From Prorocentrum cordatum (Eukaryota; Sar; Dinophyceae; Prorocentrales; Prorocentraceae), in NCBI GenBank assembly GCA_963575745.1, contig CAUYUJ010001447.1, positions 1,132,180 through 1,196,179 on the forward strand: a stretch of DNA of 64,000 nt, given 5' to 3'. Every line of letters begins with the position of its first letter. Position 1 is the first letter of the stretch. The notes under the pieces are model-generated. The model saw only the letters and a program-made list of their open reading frames with translations, had not been told where the DNA came from and did no database searches. Below, piece by piece: positions 13,494 through 52,123 of the stretch. The position numbers were made by a program, and so were the translations under genes.

Positions 13494-14205
13494 CCCCTCT
13501 TCCTCCTCCTCCTCCTCCTCCTCCCCTCCTCCTCCTCCTCCTCCTCCTCCTCCTCTCATCCTCCTCCTCTCCTATCTCCTCCTCCTCCTCCTTCCTCCTC
13601 CCTTCTCTCCCCCCTCCCTCCTCCTCCTCCTCTCCTCCTCCTTCCTCCTCCTCCTCCTCCTCCTCTCCTCCTCCTCTCCTCCTCCCCTCCCTTCCTCTCT
13701 CCTCTCCTCCTCCTCCCCCTCCCCTTCTTCTCCTCCCCTCCTCTTCCTCCTCCCTCCTCCCTCCTCCTCCCTCCTCCCCTCCCCCTCCCCTTCTTCCTCC
13801 TCCTCCTCCTCCTCTTCCTCCTCCTGCTCCTCCTCCTCTCCTCCTCCTCCCCTCCCCCTCTCATTCCTCCTCCTCCTCCTCCTCTCCTCCTCCTCCTCCT
13901 CCTACTCCTCCTCCCCTTCCTCCTCCTCCTCTCCTCCCTACTCACTCCTCCTCCCCTCCCCTTCTTCTTCCTCCTCCTCTTCCCTTCCTTCCGCCTCCTG
14001 CTCCTCCTCCTCCTCCTCCTCTCCTCCTCCTCCTCCTCCTCCTCCTCCTCCCCTTCTTCCTCCTCCTCCTCCTCCTCCTCCTCCTCCTCCTCCTCCTCCT
14101 CCTCCTCCTCCCCTCCCCCTCCCCCTCCCTTCCTCCTCCTCCTCTCCTCCTCCTCCTCCTGATCCTCCTCCTCCTCCTCCTCCTGCCCCTCCTCCACCCA
14201 TCTCC
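13494..14205 (+). repeat. CTC trinucleotide block, 0.7 kb
   Basis: The longest uninterrupted pyrimidine block in the window: CTC/TCC units with CCTT, CCCT and CTCT interruptions that shift its phase often. Several plus-strand frames of over 200 codons cross it as Ser, Pro or Leu runs. They carry no other content. Its right end joins the composite repeat at 14,215. Confidence 0.95.
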
Positions 14206-22660: not shown

Positions 22661-23620
22661 TCATCATCACCATCATCAGCATCAGCATCATCATCAGCAG
22701 CATCATCATCAGCATCATCATCAGCATCATCATCATCACCACCATCATCGTCATCGCCATCGTCGTCAACATCAGCATCAACATCATCAGCAACATCAGC
22801 AACATCATCAACACCGCCACCATTATTATCCTCATCATTCCCCTCCGTCTTAGCAACATTATCATCAGCATCATCTTCATCATCAGTCTCATCATCATCA
22901 TCATCATACTCATCATCATCAGCATCATCATCATCGACATCCTCATCGTCATCATCATGAGCAGCATCGTCATCAACATCGTCATCATCAGATCGATCAT
23001 GAACATCATCATCAGCATCACAGTCATCCTGAGCATCCTCTCCTTCTCCTCCTCAATCTCACTCCCCCATACTCATGATATTCAACAGCCTCGGCACCAG
23101 CATACGCATCAGCATCGACATCAGCATCACCACCATCATCCTCAGCATCATCGTTGGCATCAGCAACATCATCTTCACCATAATCAGTATCAGCATCAGC
23201 ATGGACACCATTACTATCAGAATCGTCACCATCACCGTGTGCATCATCATCCGCACCATCATCATCAGCATCATCATCCACATCCTCAATACCATCATCA
23301 TCAACACCATCATGTTCATCATCATGAGCACCATCAATATCATCATCATCACCATCATCATCCTCCTCCTCCTCATCATCGTCATCCGCATAATCGTACT
23401 AACCGTCATCGTCAACATACCTGGCATCCTCAGCATCATCAGCGACTTCAGCACAGCTGTCACCATTTTAATCACCATCGTCATCAACAACACCACAATC
23501 ATAATCCCCCTCATCAGCATCAACATCATCATCATCATCATCAGCATCATCATCAGCATCATCATCATCAGTGTCAGCATCATCATTATCATTATCATCA
23601 TCATCATCATCAGCAGCATC
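22661..23620 (+). repeat. CAT/ATC trinucleotide block, ~1 kb, interrupted
   Basis: ATC and CAT units with many AGC, ACC, GTC and TCC variants. Long frames on both strands translate as His, Ile, Ser or Met, Asp, Leu runs. The variants change in all three phases, so the apparent His-rich or Met-rich proteins are not supported as genes. Confidence 0.95.
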
Positions 23621-23689
23621 CTAGTAATCCCTCCTACCTCCTCTCGTCCTGCTCTTGGTCCTACTCCGGCTTGTGGTCTCTCCTCTTCC

Positions 23690-24292
23690 CCCTCCAGCTC
23701 CTCTTCTCCTCCTCCTCCCTCTTCTGCTCCGTCTCATCCCTCTCCTCCTCCTCCATCTCCTCCTCCTCCTCCTCCGCCTCCTCCCCTAACTCCTCCTCCT
23801 CCTCTCTCCTCCTCCTCTCCTCCTCCTCCCCTCCTCCTCCTCCTCCTCCTCCTCCTCCTGCCCCTCCTGCCCTCCCTCCTCCGCCCCCTCCGCCTCATTT
23901 CCTCCTCCCTCCTCCTCTTCCTCCTCCTCCCTTCTCCTCTCCTCTTCCTCCTCCTTTTCCTCCCTTATCCTGCTCCGCCTCCTCCTCCCCCTCCTCCTCG
24001 TCCCGCCTCCTCGTCCTCCTCCTCGTCCTCCTCCTCCTCCTCCTCAACCTCCTCCTCCTCCTCCCCCCTCTTGCCCCTCCACCTCCTCTCCTCGTCTTTC
24101 CTCCTCTCCTCCTCCTCCTCCTCCTCCTCCTCCTCCTCCTCCTCCTTATTCTGCTCCTGCTGCTGCTCCTCATCCTCCTCCTTATCCTGCTCCGCCTCCT
24201 CCTCCCCTTCCTCCTCGTCCTCCTCCTCCTCCGCCTTCTCCTCCTCCTCCTCCTCCTCCTCCTCCTCCACCTCCTCCTCCTCCTCATTTCTC
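23690..24292 (+). repeat. CTC trinucleotide block
   Basis: About 600 bp of CTC/TCC with CTG and CTT variants, completing a 1.9-kb simple-sequence run that starts at 22,376. Confidence 0.95.
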
Positions 24293-25844: not shown

Positions 25845-25995
25845 CTTAAGTCGGGCGTGTCCCCCTACAGGGGGATTTTCGACTAAGTCAAAAAGTATTA
25901 AACAAATTGCCCAAAAATGTTCAAAAAATCGTCCCAAGACTATTTTTTGACTATGTTTGAACATTCCTTCTGTAGAGGGACAGGCCCGACTTAAG
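25845..25995. mobile_element. CTTAAG-family inverted-repeat element, copy A (151 bp)
   Basis: Starts CTTAAGTCGGGCGTGTCCCC and ends in the matching complement, GGGGACAGGCCCGACTTAAG type. The interior is A/T-rich (TCAAAAAGTATTAAAC, CTATTTTTTGACTATG). It is flanked by GCCAGT on both sides (25,839-25,844 and 25,996-26,001), a perfect 6-bp direct repeat. It has no coding capacity, so it would depend on a transposase elsewhere. Confidence 0.85.
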
Positions 25996-27280: not shown

Positions 27281-27450
27281 GTTATGTCGGGCGTGTCCCC
27301 CTACAGGGGGATTTTCGACGAAAATGCCCCAAAAAGGTCAAACAAATACTCAAAAATTAGTCCCCTAACTATTTGTTTATTAGTGTTTGGTTATTTGGGG
27401 GGTATTTTTTCGTTGAAAATCCCCCTGTGGGGGGACAGGCCCGACTTGAG
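27281..27450. mobile_element. CTTAAG-family inverted-repeat element, copy B (170 bp)
   Basis: Begins GTTATGTCGGGCGTGTCCCC and ends with the complement of CTCAAGTCGGGCCTGTCCCC. Inner arms are GATTTTCGACGAAAAT and its counterpart near 27,410. Flanks are CCAAAA at 27,275-27,280 and CCAAAA at 27,451-27,456, a perfect 6-bp direct repeat. The terminal TTAA seen in other copies is lost here, which shows the duplication is the outer 6 bp and not TTAA. Confidence 0.85.
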
Positions 27451-40489: not shown

Positions 40490-42290
40490 CAGTGTCATGA
40501 AGCCTGCAACCCCCACTCCATGGTGGCAGGGGGTTCTTCATTACAAATGAGATGTGGCCTGGAGCTCCCATGCACAGGAAAGCCCCCAAAATTACAACTC
40601 TTCTGTGCAACAGATGCAGACGGGACGTAGCCAATCTAGGGCGTCCTCTGATGATCCTCGGCGGAATCCAAAACCAATAGACGTGCTCTATCCGAGAATC
40701 GTGGTCTCGTGGTGCCGCACTCTGTTCTCCCCCACGTTTCTACCAAGCATATGATGGGTCCGACAACATGGACCAACAAAACATGGCTGATTTTACTTGC
40801 GCCGCCACCCGCCGAGCTTCCGCTGGCTTCCGCCAGCGGAAGCGCCCCCTGCTTGCCGCTGCCGCCTTCCGCTGGCCTCCCGCCGCCTTCCGCACGGGCA
40901 GACCTGTCAGCTGCTTCGGCCCTCGCAGGCGACGAGGCCCTGCCTGGAGCGCGCCGTGCGGATCCCCTCTCGCGCCGAGTCGTAGCGGAGCGCTTCCGAG
41001 GCAGGCGGAGGGGGCCCCACCGCGCAGGGCTCTGGGCTCGCGACCCCTTTCTCTTCTCTCCCGGGTAACGCTCGGTACACGGGGGGGCAGGGGGGGCTTT
41101 CGGGCGGGTGGCAATAACGGCGGCCGCGGCGTGCACCCGCCAGAGTGCGTCGGCGCCACGGCGCATCAATCGCCTGTGTGCCCCGCAGCATGCAGGAGGG
41201 GCGGGGGGGTCCAGGCCCCCCCCCAGTACGATCGCTAGCGTTACCCTGGGGTGGGGGGGGTGGCCCGAGTGACAAGCGTTGCCCGTGGGTGAATACAATT
41301 GTGATCTCTCGAGCGCAGGGACAAGGATCACACGTGGGCGCAGGAATCAAGCTCTCCACGTCGGCGCGGCTCGCAGGAACGAGGGCGGGGAACACGCGGG
41401 TGTGGGACCGTTCGCTACGAACCGACACTCTGATGGGTCAGCGAGTGCGGCAGGGCGCGACCGACGTACAGTCAACCAGTACAGTAAGGGTCCATGATAA
41501 GAATGCAAGGGCCCTGGAAGGCCATGTCATGTCGAAATTTAGCAGGCGGGGTGCGGCCAGCGAAAGCGGTCAAGGATGGGCCGAAGAGGAAGGATGCAAG
41601 GGTAGCCATGGAAAATCACTCATCCTTACTGTGCGGGTTGACTGTGATGGAACTGCTTGTTTCAATTTCTCCTCTCGCCAAGAACTGCAGCGCTCTCTGC
41701 CCGGCTCCCACGAGGGCGCCGGGTCTTGCCAGAATCGGCGTTTTCTCCCACGAGGTCCACCAAGTCATCCCCCATGTAATCTCAGTCGGTAGAAATTCCT
41801 GCGAGCGCTCACATGTGGACACTCATGGTGGGAGGGCGGGGTTCTGTCCAGGAGGGCTTATTACAAGGAGAACTCTTGAAAAGGAAGGGCCCGCTGCAGC
41901 ATGGATCAAAGGCGCGCGGCGAGAAAGAAGGATGGGGAAGTAAGGGAGCAGGCGGAGGGTGAGGGGAGGAGGGGGACCGAGGACCGAGGCACAGGGGGCG
42001 GCGCTGTCCACACGGCGGCTGCGCCCCAAGCGCCGGCGCGATGGAGCAGGGCGCCGCACCGCCGAGTCGGGCATGCCCTGGCGTCCTGCCTCCAACGCTT
42101 GCTTGGAGCGGCTGCCGGGATGCACCAACCAGGCTGCAATACACCCTCCCGTCCGAAGCCCACTCCTCAGAGGTCCCGCGCCCGCGAAGGGCGAACGCCC
42201 GGGGGTCCTGCCGATGAGGCGGTGCCCCGCTCTGTGGAGGATCCGCCCTCCATCCTAAGACGTTTGCGACCAGGGGCGCAAAAAGGCAAT
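40490..42290. other. No gene recognised; CTTCCGCTGG repeat at 40,805-40,900
   Basis: Open frames on both strands are Ala/Arg/Gly/Pro-rich without domains. G-runs at 41,080-41,093 and 41,253-41,261. A short CTTCCGCTGGC-type repeat parallels that at 26.9 kb. Confidence 0.55.
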
Positions 42291-42356
42291 TAGGATGAAG
42301 TCGGGCCTGTCCCCCTACAGGGAGATTGTCGACGAACCAAAAAAAGATACCCCAAA

Positions 42357-43775
42357 CATGATCGACCCACGAACCCGGAAAGGAATATAGAAATGTAAGG
42401 CGTTGCAACATTTCAAAGACACCTGATTGGGCGACGGGCACATGCAATGCTGAATGTATCGATGATGATGTACTGTGCCGACGGCTGTGCTGTGCTACGC
42501 CGTGCTGAACTGCGATGTGCCATGCCGCGATTGTGCTCTATATAGCGTTGTGGATCGAGTCCTCCCTGGCATCCGAGTCCTCACCGAACTGATCTGGAGC
42601 GTAAGCTCGAGCTGCCTGAGCAGATGGTAGCTGCCCCAGAACTAATCGACAGAGGGAACATGCCAAGAGGACGCGCCGCGGAACGTCCCAAGGGACGCGC
42701 CAGGCGACGTGCCAGGGGACGTGCCATGGGCACGCACCGCGGGACGTGCCAAGGGGACGCGCTACGGAACGTGCCAATGGACGTGCCGAGGGACGTGCCA
42801 GGGGACGCGCCGCGCGACGTGCCAGGTGGACTCGCCACGGAACGCGCCAAGGAACGTGCCAAGGTGCATAGTTGAGTGTATCGATCTTGATGTACCGTGC
42901 CGACGGCTGTGCTGTGCTGGGCCGTGCTGAACTGCGATGTGCCATGCCGCGATTGTGCTCTATATAGCGTTGTGGATCGAGTCCTCCCTGGCATCCGAGT
43001 CCTCACCGAACTGATCTGGAGCGTAAGCTCGAGCTGCCTGAGCAGATGGTAGCTGCCCCAGAACTAATCGACAGAGGGAACATGCCAAGAGGACGCGCCG
43101 CGGAACGTCCCAAGGGACGCGCCAGGCGACGTGCCAGGGGACGTGCCATGGGCACGCACCGCGGGACGTGCCAAGGGGACGCGCTACGGAACGTGCCAAT
43201 GGACGTGCACCGCGCGACGTGCCAGGGGGACTCGCCACGGGACGCTCCGCGGAACGTGCCAGGCAACATGCCAGGCTGCAATGCTAAGGATATCGATCTT
43301 GATGTACCGTGCCGAGGGCTGTGCTGTGCCTTGGCGACCTGGACACGTGAAAACACGCGTTTCGCTCAAGACGTTCTCAGCACATCCTCATGCTAGACAT
43401 CCGCCTGGGCGACCTGGACACGTGAAAACAAGCCTCTGGTTCGAGACATCCTCAACAAATCCTCATGCTAGACATCTGTCAGGGACACCTGGAGGCGTGA
43501 AACCAAGCGTCTCGCTCGAGACATCCTCAAGACCTGGGCACGTGAAAACAAGCAATCCACTTGAGAAATCCTCTGAATTCAGGTCCCCAGGAGAGGACAA
43601 TATATAACACAAAACAAGCGTTTCGCTCGAGACATCCTCCACCAATTCTGAAAAACAAGCGTTTCGCTCGAGAGATCCTCAAATTCTAATTCGCCGGCCC
43701 TACTCCCGCATGTAATTCATCGCAAAATAACTTCGCCGGCCCAAGTCGCAGGGGGGCCGGGGGGTTAACCTACTA
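42357..43775 (+). repeat. 1.4-kb complex repeat, first copy
   Basis: Begins CATGATCGACCCACGAACCC and ends GGGGGGTTAACCTACTA-type sequence. Inside are two ~420-bp sub-units (marked by GTATCGAT--TGATGTAC near 42,455, 42,873 and 43,290). Each contains a run of 11-12-bp GGACGTGCCA or GGACGCGCCA words. After these come repeats of GCGTTTCGCTCGAGACATCC (43,355-43,690). Confidence 0.9.
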
Positions 43776-45160
43776 CATGATCGACCCACGAACCCGGAAA
43801 GGAATATAGAACTGTAACACATGGCAGCGTTTTCAAAGACACCTGATTGGGTGACGGGCAAATGCAATGCTGAGTGTATCGATCTTGATGTACCCTGCCA
43901 AGGGCTGTGCTGTGCTGCGCCGTGCTGAATTGCGATGTGCCATGGCGCGACTGCGCTCTATAGCGTCGTGGATCGAGTCCTCCTTTGCATCCGAGTTCTG
44001 ACCGAACTGATCTGGATCTTAAGCTCGAGCTGCCTGAACACATAGTAGCTGCCCCAGAGCTAATGGACAGGGGAACATGCCAGGAGGACGCGCCGCGAAA
44101 CGTCCCAAGGGATGCGCCAGGCGACGTGCCAGGGGACGCGCCATGGGGTCGCACCGTAGGACGTGCCAAAGGGACGCGCTACGGAACGTGCCAATGGATG
44201 TGCCACGGAATGTGCCAGGGGACGCGCCACGCGACGTGCCAGGGGGACTCGCCAAGGGACGCCCCACGGAACGTGCCAAGGAACGTGCCAAGTTGCAATG
44301 CTGAGTGTATCGATCTTGATGTACCCTGCCGAGGGCTGTGCTGTGCTGCACCGTGCTGAATTGCGATGTGCCATGCCGCGACTGTGCTCTATAGCGTCGT
44401 GGATCGAGTCCTCCTTTGCATCCGAGTCCTGACCGAACTGATCTGGATCTTAAGCTCGAGCTGCCTGAACACATAGTAGCTGCCCCAGAGCTAATGGACA
44501 AGGGGAACATGCCAGGAGGACGCGCCGCGAAACGTCCCAAGGGATGCGCCAGGCGACGTACCAAGATGAGCCATGGGGTCGCAACGCGGGACGTGCCAAG
44601 GGGACGCGCTACTGAACGTGCTGGGGACAAGCGTTTCGCTCGAGACATCCTATCACAATCATCAGAATTCCTACGCGCGGGACGCGGCACGCGCGAGACA
44701 TCCTCGGAATTCCTGCGAGCGGGACACGAAAATAAGCATTGCGCCTGAGATATCCTCTGAATTCTGGCCCCCCACGAGGCCCCCGCTCGAGATATCCCCC
44801 AATTTTGCAAAACCAGCGTTTCGCTCGAGACATCCTCAACAAATTATGAAAAACAAGCGTTTCGCTTGAGAAATCCTGTCAAACCCAAAGAAATCAAAAT
44901 TCCTGCGTGCGGGACGCGGCACGCGCGAGACGCGCTTTTCAGTGTCGCGGTCGGCTCTGCAAAACCAGCGTTTCGCTTGAGACATCCTCAACAAATTCTG
45001 AAACCAAGCGTTTCGCTCGAGACATCCCCAACTCTGCAAAACCAGCGTTTCGCTCGAGACATCCTCAACAAATTCTGAAACACAAGCGTTTCGCTCGAGA
45101 CATCCTCAAAAATAATTTCGCCGGCCCAAGTCGCAGGGGGGCCGGGGGGTTAACCTACTA
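43776..45160 (+). repeat. 1.4-kb complex repeat, second copy
   Basis: Same start, same sub-units (GTATCGATCTTGATGTACCC near 43,877 and 44,305) and same end as the first copy, length about 1,385 bp against 1,419. The GCGTTTCGCTCGAGACATCC repeats are more numerous here (about 44,630-45,110), often preceded by AAAACCA or ACA. Confidence 0.9.
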
Positions 45161-45230
45161 AAAGAGAACCCTGGGCCCGCGCCCTTTCCGGGAAAAAGAG
45201 AACCCTGGGCCCGCGCCCTTTCCGGGAAAA
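45161..45230 (+). repeat. 34-bp tandem duplication
   Basis: AAAGAGAACCCTGGGCCCGC followed by GCCCTTTCCGGGAA occurs twice in succession with no difference seen. Confidence 0.85.
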
Positions 45231-45471
45231 TAATCAAACAATAATCCAAACATAGCCTGGGAACTATTTGTTTACTACTTTTTGATTTTTTTGTTGGAAT
45301 TTGTAGGATTTCTGGTATTGTTTCGTAGAAGAGCCCCCTGTAGGGGGACATGCCCGACCTAAAAGTAGGAGGATCAGGGCCAGGAGCGTTTCTCGATCAC
45401 ACTCCCGTCCTGGGAAGAATGGGCCCCGCACCCGTGTGAACAATGCTTGATTTCCCAAAAGAGAGTCTAGA

Positions 45472-45666
45472 CTTAAGTCGGGCCTGTCCCCTTACAGGGG
45501 GGATTTTCGACGAAAAATAAAAGATACCCCAAAAATACCCCAACAAGGTCAACAAGTACTCAAAAAATACTCCCCAGACTATTTTTGGACTATGTTCTGA
45601 ATATGTTTGGGGTATCTTATATTTGTCGTCGAAAATCCCCTTGTAGGGGGACAGGCCCGACTTAAG
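45472..45666. mobile_element. CTTAAG-family inverted-repeat element, copy C (195 bp)
   Basis: The longest short copy. Arms of about 44 bp read CTTAAGTCGGGCCTGTCCCC, then ACAGGGGGGATTTTCGACGA, and are matched at the other end by the complement. Each arm also holds its own small palindrome (CCCC-TTACA-GGGG type). Flanks are TCTAGA (45,466-45,471) and TCTAGG (45,667-45,672). The interior is A/T-rich with AAAGATACCCC and TATTTTTGGACTATG. Confidence 0.85.
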
Positions 45667-45672
45667 TCTAGG

Positions 45673-47470
45673 CTCGGGTATCACATTTTGGGATGGAGCC
45701 GCCCCCCACCCATGTGCACACTGCACAGATGGGGGAACAACCTCGTAGTCTTTGAAGTCTGCAGCGGCAGCCGCATGGTGAACACGAGCCCGCCTCCATC
45801 TTTGTGACCTTGGGGTCGCGGGGTCCCCCGAAAACTCCAGCGATGACCGCCCATGGAAAAATGGCGGGCTGGCACTCATCAGTGCAGCTCATGAACATGA
45901 TCAACCGAATGTTCGCACCGCTAGGGCGAGGGCCGCATGCAGGAAACCACTGGCCCTCCATCCGTGTAACTGTCTGCATTTCTCTTTCGGACACTAAGTG
46001 CTTGTAAGGAAGAGGAGCTGAGGACAGCGGGGGAATGCAGGCAGAAGAGAAGGGGGGGGTGAAAGGAGGAGAATGAGAGGAAGGAGAAAAAATTGATGAA
46101 TGGACGGAGGGAGGGAAGGGGGAGGGAGAAGGGAGGTACGGGATGGACAGCAGGAGGGGGAGTAGCACGAGGACGGAGGCCGGACGGAAGGAGGGATAAA
46201 GAGAAAGGAGGATGGGAACGCTCGGAGCAGCATCTCTTCTCTAGGGTCCCTGGTCTCCTCGACCTCCTCGATGTGGCGGCCCATCCGCTCAACCTTCTCC
46301 ACCACGCCTGATAAAACCGGAGCAGTGACGAGAGGGGCGAGACGGTGATCTCCCCTACATGGCCCACTCCGTCACTCGTTCGCAGATTCCGTGGCGGCTT
46401 GGAATGTGCACGCTCGTGGAGAAACTCGCGCACGAGAAGCACGGAAAAGCTTTCGGACAGCACGCAAGGAGCAGGCGTCACTCCTCCGGAGGCACCACGA
46501 TCACAGCTTCGCTGGAAGGAGAAAAAGACATGGCTGGGGGACTTGTGGCTCAGGCCTCGGGGATCTTCTGACCCGGGTCGATCCAGACCAGGGTCAGCAG
46601 GAAACCAAAAAACTGCAATGCAGGAAAACAAAACTGCAACGCAGGTCTTCGCAAACCCGGGTCAGCCAATATGCGCGGCCGCCTCGCGGCCACGAGCGGC
46701 TCACTGACCCGAGTCAGCCAAGGGGGGTCTTTGCAGGATCCTGCAGGATCCGGTGCGCTGGCTCACCCCCGTTTGCATTGACCCCCGTCTCAAGGCTCCC
46801 GAAGGCCAGCTTCATGAGCCTCCTCAGTCTTCCCGCCTCCCGCCCTGCTCCTGATCCTCCACCGCCTCCTCCTCTCCCGGCCTCTGGCCCTCTCCTGTCT
46901 TTCTCATCCTGCTCCTCGTCATCCCATCCTCCTCCTCCTCCTCATCTTCCTCTTCCTCCTCCTCCTCATCCTCCTCCCATCCAATATCCTGTTTCGTCAT
47001 ATGGTTCCTCTTCCTCCTCTCCCCGCTTGCATCTCATGAAGAGAACGACGAGGATAAGCAGGGATGGTCTCTGTCGAAGATGAGAGGGACAGGGACAGAA
47101 GGAGGACGACGAGGAAGACCTTACTCTTCACTACGAGACTTGCCCCCTGGAAAGAGCAGCACCCTACGGGCTTGCCATGCTGGCGAGAAGCACTTTTGAA
47201 AAGGAACTGCTTTGCAGCGTGTTAGCGCATCATGAGCAATGCGAGGCAATGTTATACAGTCCCGCAGGTTGTTTAGCGAGGGCACCGTGTAACTGTTGCA
47301 AAAGCTTGTGCATCTGGCAATGAAATGGGAGCAAATCCCCGACCAGACTCTGATTTTGCAAAGGGACCGTCCCGCATCCGCCCATCTGTCTCAATCGCGA
47401 GAGCTTCATTTTGAAAAGGTGCGCCGTCCATCCGCGTAAGCAAAGGCCTCCTAGATAGGGCCGGAGAAGA
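45673..47470. other. No complete gene; CTC block and a helix-like fragment
   Basis: A minus frame at 46,305-46,240 reads MVEKVERMGRHIEEVEETRD, coiled-coil-like, then turns to low-complexity sequence. A CTC/CTT tract is at 46,848-46,985. TTTGCAGGATCCTGCAGG is at 46,733-46,750. The rest has no recognisable feature. Confidence 0.5.
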
Positions 47471-51271: not shown

Positions 51272-52123
51272 CGATGAGAAAAGGAGGAGGAGGATCCGCG
51301 TTCAGGAAGGGGGAGAGAGAAGTCCCAGTCCACAGCAGCGCGCGGAGAGGAGAAGGAGGAGAAAGAGGACGAGGAGGAGGAGGAAGAGGATACTGACGAG
51401 GAGGAGGAAGAGGAGGAGGAGGAGGAGGAAAAGGAGGAGGAGCAGGATGAGGATAATGGGGAGCAGAATGAGGAGAAGGGGAATGATGATGATGATGAGG
51501 AGGAGGAGGAGGAGGAGGAGCAGGAGGAGGACGAGGACGAGGAGGATGAGGAGGAGGAGGAGGAGGAAGAGGCGGGAGAGGAGGAGAATGCCTGGAGGAA
51601 GAAGACGAGGAGGAGGAGGAGGGGGTGGAGGAGGAGGAAGGGGAGGAGGAGGAGGAGAAGGAGGAGGGGGAGGAAGAGGGGGAGGATTCGGGATGATGAT
51701 GAGGAGGGGAAGGAGGAGGAGGAGGAGGAGGAGGAGGAGGAGGAGGAGGAGGAAGAGGGCGGAGGAGGAGGAGGAGGAGGTTGGGGCGGGGCGGTCAGGA
51801 GGATCACAGGAGCTGCGGCGGCGAGGAGGACGAGCACGCCGAGGGCGCCCTGGAGGGGCGAGGAGGGTGAGGACGAGGAGGACGGCGTCAACGAAGAGAC
51901 CAAGGAGGAGGAGGAGAAGGAGGAGGAGGACGACGACGAGGACGAGGAGGAGGAGGAGGAGGAGCAAGAGGAGGAGAACGACGGCGACGAGGAGGAGGAG
52001 TAGCAGGAGGAGGAGGAGGAGGAGGAGGAGGAGGAGGAGAGGAGGAGGACGAGGCCAAGGAGGACGAGGCCAAGGAGGAGGAGGAGGAGGAGGAGGAGGA
52101 GGAGGAGGACGAAGACGAGGAGG
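51272..52123 (+). repeat. GAG trinucleotide blocks
   Basis: Two GAG-rich tracts (51,272-51,785 and 51,865-52,123) separated by ~80 bp of GC-rich sequence. A 600-codon minus frame crosses them as Ser/Pro/Leu and is a by-product. Confidence 0.95.

Follow-up and report, generated by a model that had tools for sequence, protein, structure and literature searches.

A MITE of the dinoflagellate Prorocentrum cordatum that probably hosts a head-to-tail dimer of a Helentron-like element

Introduction

Canonical Helitrons begin with 5'-TC, end with 3'-CTRR and insert between A and T. Alu elements insert into the A-tails of other Alus, a case in which A-run targeting leads to head-to-tail pairs. Helitron2 is described as having a palindrome at each end and terminal inverted repeats that are asymmetrical, and Helentron mite families carry 12-15-bp subterminal repeats, which lie 2-4 nt inside the 5' end and 38-60 nt inside the 3' end, with a palindrome near the end whose subterminal repeat is further in (PMC4067079, accessible part). 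Miniature inverted-repeat transposable elements (MITEs) and Helitrons with internal satellites are already known (PMC12628747 and PMC4079207, accessible parts), and introner elements have been reported for the dinoflagellate P. cordatum (PMC10666404, accessible part). Here we describe a 3-kb locus at 42288..45370 of a 64,000-nt stretch of the P. cordatum genome (assembly GCA_963575745.1, contig CAUYUJ010001447.1, positions 1,132,180 to 1,196,179), referred to as the window. We conclude that this locus is most probably a nest of mobile elements, consisting of a MITE and, inside it, a dimer of a non-autonomous family that resembles Helitron2/Helentron elements.

Results

The outer element is a complete MITE cut in two

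The genome searched comprises 4.128 Gb in 21,875 contigs, with the window on the contig numbered C1447. In window coordinates the locus has the following parts:

42288..42295, + strand: AATTAGGA, target-site duplication on the left side of the outer MITE (8-bp register established with 26 sister copies)
42296..42356, + strand: left MITE part, consensus 1 to ~60, with terminal CCCCAAA (alignment to the 26-copy consensus)
42357..43775, + strand: main part of the inner element U1 (A-type body), starting with CATGATCGACCCACGAACCCGGAAAGG (sharp start shared by all 20 fetched loci)
43776..45192, + strand: U2, the second inner element (B-type, 1,417 bp), within the terminal A-run CTACT-AAAA-GAG of U1 (identity to monomers, recurring junction)
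45193..45194, + strand: two extra A's accompanying U2 (A-run 1+5 against 4 in 17 of 19 terminator-bearing entries)
45195..45226, + strand: remainder of U1, the 3' terminator with the hairpin GGGC-NNNN-GCCC (doubled-terminator pattern at 40 places)
45227..45228, + strand: two extra A's accompanying U1 (A-run 3+4 against 5 in the MITE consensus)
45229..45362, + strand: right MITE part (alignment to consensus 59-187)
45363..45370, + strand: AAGTAGGA, target-site duplication on the right side of the outer MITE (sequence reading and 26-copy register)

An earlier note on this DNA had reported two correctly facing element halves about 2.9 kb apart, and indeed the arms at 42300-42359 and 45299-45358 are 75% complementary with a spacing of 2,939 nt. 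Fetching 28 genomic copies of the family and removing two duplicates left 26 sister MITEs, one of them (L001) being the window neighbour at 45.5 kb. When aligned to their 187-bp consensus, the left arm corresponds to MITE positions 1-63 and the right arm to 59-187. As the arms jointly cover the consensus and a target duplication surrounds the whole, the two halves, which the note had taken to be one element by inference, form a complete MITE that was cut in two. Members of the family are ~187-195 bp long, the split window copy having 195 bp (42296-42356 plus 45229-45362), and the terminal inverted repeats TTAAGTCGGGC...GCCCGACTTAA occur, with point changes, in all 26 copies.

The target duplication comprises 8 bp, 7 of which are identical between the two sides of the window copy; a match of at least 7/8 has a chance of ~0.04% according to a by-hand estimate. 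In the 26 sister MITEs left and right flanks agree with a frequency of 0.81-0.96 per position across exactly 8 positions, as compared to 0.12-0.35 at the tested positions on either side of this register, with one inner-element position at 0.50. The preferred centre of the duplication is CTAG. At least 5 of 8 positions match in 25 of the 26 copies and 7-8 in 22, and the remaining copy (1/8) is apparently shifted by one base. We initially read the duplication as 6 bp and dropped this for 8 bp after the terminal bases were found to match the outer flank. The near-identical outer flanks noticed previously are thus a real duplication, although of 8 rather than 6 bp.

With its terminal inverted repeats, its duplication of fixed length, its shortness, its lack of coding sequence and its high copy number the outer element is a MITE. 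An 8-bp duplication centred on CTAG recalls hAT/Buster elements, but the start of the terminal inverted repeat does not, and we leave the superfamily unassigned. The left edge reads GT, with the G shared with the duplication, in 9 of the 26 genomic copies (the GT edge is seen at window 27281-27450 and at loci L006, L012-L016, L018, L021 and L023), and many copies end in TAAG. An introner origin of the MITE may be considered.

The MITE is abundant, with 7,859 first-look candidates in the genome. The pattern GTCGGGCNTGTCCCC (up to 2 mismatches) occurs nine times in the window versus 1.25 times expected, a number reached in none of 100 shuffles. Six copies of more than 100 bp and three fragments of 31-47 bp were found in a sample of twenty 10-kb stretches (170 kb of non-N sequence), the contigs of which came mostly from the list of MITE matches and three of which lie beside the window. 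Extrapolation from this small, non-random sample gives roughly 1.5-2x10^5 MITE copies genome-wide.

The interior belongs to an independent dispersed family

U1 and U2 are each ~1.4 kb long and share 87.8% identity in the first 854 columns of their alignment, so that the two 1.4-kb copies seen earlier between the halves are present; they belong, however, to an interspersed family and are not a slice of a regular satellite array. The 5' end of the family is CATGATCG or CATGATCGACCCACGAACCCGG, beginning with CATG; the start CATGATCGACCCACGAACCCGGAAAGG is found in 20 of 20 fetched loci, and the preceding flanks mostly end in AAA. Copies terminate in GAGAACCCTGGGC-NNNN-GCCCTTTCCGGG, in some cases with one base altered, and A's come next; the 3' end consists of a hairpin and TTTCCGGG with CCGGG(AA) as terminus. 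Genome-wide there are 3,450 exact matches to the 27-base 5' end and 6,671 matches to the 3' end when its loop is left free, with none for the reversed controls in either case. In the 170-kb sample the family had no match at E 1e-4 and only weak ones at a laxer setting.

Complete monomers (n = 17, two of them duplicated loci) are 1,103-1,667 bp long, and the family has internal minisatellites. U1 with its tail rejoined is 95.2-97.8% identical to 12 of them and 88.5-94.4% to the other five. The A-type U1 and monomer L062_181 share 97.8% identity over 1,408 columns, and the B-type U2 and monomer L051_2224 share 93.6% over 1,416 columns. These length and identity values cover loci whose 3' end was recognised within the stretch fetched, which sets aside L060, L064, L067 and second copies cut by stretch ends.

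According to the earlier note, a satellite amplified inside the outer element, or carried by it, would spread through the genome as part of a composite 3-kb transposon. The correctly facing halves and the 7/8 duplication around the whole agree with such a carrier, but the surroundings of the inner family do not. A query across the left junction gave 1,504 first-look candidates. Among the 40 that were scored, the window alone covers the whole MITE part, and 38 of the 39 other matches start at query positions 20-26, adjoining the first base of the inner element (query 28), the remaining one, on C14645, starting at query 11. The exact junction between MITE and inner element occurs once in 4.13 Gb, at the window. 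Allowing 1-2 mismatches adds 13 places (control 0), some of which resemble plain MITE, which can read CCCCAAACATGATC. Two places, C14645:261987-262097 and C6113:222862-222883, are closer than most to the junction and may be further insertions into MITE-like sequence.

We also examined the 5' flanks of 19 loci, L058 being dropped as its flank duplicates that of L050. Thirteen flanks match neither family, three lie in the inner family and three, representing one duplicated locus on C2392, in a MITE; hence 16 of the 19 tested loci have no MITE at the 5' flank. The C2392 element is a second MITE-hosted copy; its host is another MITE, bounded by the duplication TCTTCGGC/TCTTGGGC, and the position within the MITE differs as well. 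The locus is present three times, at 518176, 525794 and 569097. All three copies have a common upstream outer flank, and the two with a 3' end share the downstream flank too; because of the common outer flank we counted them as one event that was duplicated later. The trio represents a segmental duplication of a MITE with its inner element. Altogether we counted 22 distinct insertion events, two in MITEs, five in the inner family and 15 in other sequence. As 15 of the 22 events are flanked on the 5' side by sequence outside both families, a long regular head-to-tail array is not the main form of the inner unit.

The presence of the inner family without the MITE indicates that the MITE is a landing site and not a carrier. 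Interior copies free of MITE ends, an exact junction found only once, and a second hosted copy at another position of another MITE make a satellite-carrying MITE very improbable. Copies of the repeat that lack these termini are just what the earlier note had named as contradicting it. Inner 3' ends lie only ~90-160 bp apart at C4:390132, 390290 and 390449 and at C63:10342-10568, hinting at much shorter tandem derivatives.

Insertion into A-runs adds two A's at four sites

The 5' and 3' flanks of fetched inner copies are mostly A-runs. At four sites the A-runs to the left and right of the element were compared with the empty run: 3+4 versus 5 in the window MITE, 1+5 versus 4 for U2 in U1 (4 in 17 of 19 terminator-bearing entries), 3+5 versus 6 in the C2392 MITE and 3+4 versus 5 at L053. 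The 19 entries contain the window U2 and two duplicated loci counted twice; a twentieth, the main part of U1, has no terminator. The net gain is thus two A's at each of the four sites, with no further duplicated bases. We had also considered a duplication of 4-5 bp flanking the inner block and gave it up in favour of this two-A rule.

All four copies tested carry a 10-bp subterminal inverted repeat, CCCGGAAAGG/CCTTTCCGGG, a length reached by one of 2,000 shuffles of the ends of one copy. The repeat is asymmetric, starting from base 18 (17 nt in) at one end and being terminal at the other (2 nt in if the two A's are counted). A distance of 8 nt separates the hairpin GGGC-NNNN-GCCC from the GGG end, which is the end with the near-terminal repeat; the hairpin stem GGGC/GCCC is constant, with seven different loops in the 19 terminator-bearing entries. 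Among the first 100 of the 6,671 3' ends, where the stem is constant by pattern, the 4-nt loop varies widely, as if free to do so.

The net gain of two A's, as well as the repeat itself, would also suit an unclassified cut-and-paste element acting on the 10-bp inverted repeat and producing a 2-bp AA duplication. The asymmetry of the repeat, the hairpin with its variable loop and the existence of dimers argue in the other direction, so that we regard a cut-and-paste element as rather unlikely.

U1 and U2 form a recurrent head-to-tail dimer

Where U2 starts, U1 lacks its last 32-34 bp, and those bases are present after U2, so that the remainder of U1 and the own end of U2 form a doubled 34-bp terminator repeat. 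Insertion of U2 into the U1 run CTACT-AAAA-GAG would explain both the missing and the doubled terminator. The dimer junction CCTACTA|CATGATCGACC occurs at 14 exact places (the reversed control gives none on the forward strand and one on the reverse). With a 251-bp query spanning this junction we obtained 2,337 candidates, and all 40 scored matches cross the junction, 31 of them over the full length (window included), with 81-96% identity besides the self match; two further matches are pieces that stop at the junction. The doubled terminator is found at 40 exact places (control 0). In eight cases, one of them the window, a scored dimer junction precedes it by 1.4-2.1 kb on the same strand of the same contig. 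Dimers on C8225 and C6369 have an A-type 5' end with unrelated flanks upstream, and those on C14422 and C18000 have doubled terminators followed by differing flanks. We had taken U2 for a one-off nested insertion and revised this to a moving dimer when junction and doubled terminator proved to be recurrent. With the junction present in every one of the 40 scored matches, it is probable that the dimer is mobile as a unit.

Alternatively, U1 and U2 might be a rolling-circle read-through dimer in which U1 lost the 34-bp terminator, replication continued into a second copy and slippage gave rise to the doubled terminator. The head-to-tail order is compatible with read-through, and so is the dimer on C8225, which has the junction with a single terminator and fits read-through dimerisation equally well. 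Yet the bases missing from U1 are those that follow U2, as predicted for insertion into an A-run, the doubled terminator recurs as described, and U1 and U2 belong to different subtypes, all of which renders a read-through origin quite unlikely.

The recurrence also bears on the assembly itself. A hybrid Illumina/PacBio assembly of a repeat-rich genome (PMC10666404, accessible part), if it is the one used here, could join unrelated pieces. To such an artefact we nevertheless attach hardly any weight, as the nest of a full MITE, a full U1, a full U2 and an 8-bp duplication is base-exact and as the dimer junction is found again on many contigs, as is the doubled terminator.

Inner elements cluster in the same orientation

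The orientation of neighbouring ends was determined for the first 100 places each, by contig number, of the lists of 5' and 3' ends, the loci overlapping between lists. Exact 5' ends are expected once per 1.2 Mb, yet for 54 of the 100 the next one is no more than 5 kb away, and the spacing is irregular. Neighbouring 5' ends have the same versus opposite orientation in 41 versus 0 cases below 10 kb, 12 versus 1 at 10-100 kb and 2 versus 2 beyond; the corresponding values for 3' ends are 51 versus 2, 14 versus 1 and 3 versus 3. In L084, which covers 6 kb of one cluster, copies are nested in one another or adjoin one another's A-runs. Runs of at least four A's and of at least four T's number 8 and 0 in U1, 9 and 3 in U2, 7 and 1, 8 and 1, and 11 and 4 in three other copies, and 6 and 6 in the MITE, where such A-runs reach a density of 32 per kb as compared to 3.0 per kb in the window. 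Self-nesting in A-runs that is locked in orientation is likely the cause of the same-orientation clusters.

Other features of the window

The window contains four other copies of the MITE family, three of which are clear, while a decayed one at ~13.0 kb was recognised by pattern and eye and missed by the similarity search. The clear copies are:

45473..45665, + strand: intact sister MITE (copy L001), with duplications 45465-45472 GTCTAGAC and 45666-45673 GTCTAGGC
25846..25994, + strand: sister MITE with duplications AGCCAGTC and GGCCAGTC (sequence reading and similarity)
27282..27449, + strand: sister MITE with duplications GCCAAAAG and GCCAAAAA (sequence reading and similarity)

The GC content is 50-66% in 2-kb steps, and long imperfect CCT/GGA and CAT triplet tracts of up to ~1 kb are found window-wide, for example at 13496-14195, 22661-24285 and 51347-52123. 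Searches for tRNA genes and for Rfam families (gathering level) gave no match, and a Pfam search of 10 of the 55 listed open reading frames gave one sub-threshold match only. No exact match to three short patterns was found in viral contigs, a search that possibly left out near records.

Discussion

The locus would have formed in two steps. A MITE of ~195 bp may have inserted with creation of the 8-bp duplication, and one of its A-runs would later have received a 2.87-kb dimer, in head-to-tail order, of a dispersed family that is unrelated to the MITE and has no recognised genes. Apart from two added A's this entry would have left no duplication. The dimer itself most likely arose from insertion of a B-type U2 into the terminal A-run of an A-type U1; as the pair would retain the two ends of U1, it could be copied as a unit, possibly by a rolling-circle mechanism that relies on a helper enzyme. 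Because A-runs lie mostly on one strand and the orientation of the element follows the A-run, self-insertion would nearly always be head to tail and may build satellite-like clusters. We therefore suggest, tentatively and with somewhat more doubt than confidence, that an A-run-seeking element with one-strand A-runs can give rise to head-to-tail satellite-like clusters and unit-moving dimers by transposition alone.

The notion of mobile DNA seeding satellite-like arrays survives, not via the MITE but for the inner element itself, with its same-orientation clusters: the route of a satellite carried by a MITE is removed, and self-insertion in fixed orientation takes its place as a testable replacement. 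Large dinoflagellate genomes contain many unclassified repeats, and here two abundant families gain exact ends, target rules and counts. Both can now be masked, dated and used for asking how satellite-like arrays begin, and their nesting supplies a relative time order.

Several points weigh against this account. The empty-run lengths come from few relatives, with clean empty runs, for the two MITE sites, in five and two of the 26 MITE copies (five A's in four of the five and six in one; six in both of the two) and, for L053, in U2 only. The A preference of the 5' flank is partly built into the query, in which AAA preceded the element; among five second copies that this query did not cover, four follow AA, and the window U2 does not. 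One self-insertion, L053_1881, has the opposite orientation. Segmental duplication, as seen at C2392, could partly produce same-orientation clusters, and unidirectional gene blocks might contribute as well, the genes of P. cordatum being mostly unidirectionally encoded (PMC10666404, accessible part). The dimer on C8225 has a single terminator, and the fetched stretches contain only the 3' outer end of the dimers on C14422 and C18000 and only the 5' one of the dimer on C6369. Relative to Helentrons, the inner repeat has 10 instead of 12-15 bp and a different placement, and the hairpin stands beside the near-terminal repeat, at the opposite end from the Helentron palindrome (PMC4067079, accessible part). 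No autonomous element with the ends of the inner family was found, no direct search having been made. The inner family appears to work like a non-autonomous Helitron2/Helentron, but owing to the differences in repeat placement and length and to the missing partner we do not file it as a Helentron/HINE member.

The Helitron Rep domain PF14214 is plentiful in the genome, with 1,615 first-look candidates and 151 matches, every listed one above the cut-off and most without internal stop, compared with 0 of 14 control genomes. Many of the matches have long open frames, and there are sets of identical scores, suggesting recent Helitron activity.

In its ends the inner element departs from canonical Helitrons, as it starts with CATG, ends with CCGGG(AA) and inserts within A-runs. 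It shares A-run targeting and head-to-tail pairs with Alu but, unlike Alu, gives no sign of retroposition with longer target duplications, and its A-runs are internal as well as terminal. Searches on dinoflagellate or Prorocentrum repeats and on self-insertion of transposable elements, in which subscription journals are thinly covered, listed no title on either of the two families. HINE/DINE-1 and Helitron2 elements resemble the inner family in being interspersed, geneless and of high copy number and in their subterminal inverted repeats, in carrying a palindrome, if at the other end, and, in some copies, in tandem repeats; they further have T-rich targets, no duplication and a variable number of terminal T's, corresponding to the A-runs on this strand (PMC4067079, accessible part). 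In contrast to these elements, the inner family has no shown partner and its host genome is that of a dinoflagellate. The locus as a whole is reminiscent of the Xenopus MITEs Xstir and miDNA4 with an internal satellite (PMC12628747, accessible part) and of the foldback element Tetris (PMC4079207, accessible part), all of which are inverted-repeat elements around tandem repeats, whereas the repeat-bearing part here is an independent mobile family for which the MITE is only a landing site. Finally, head-to-tail copies of a rolling-circle-like element also make up the tandem arrays of Helitrons known from plants (Xiong et al., cited in the accessible part of PMC12628747), but the arrays described here, in the window and in L084, are explained by insertion of the element into its own A-runs.

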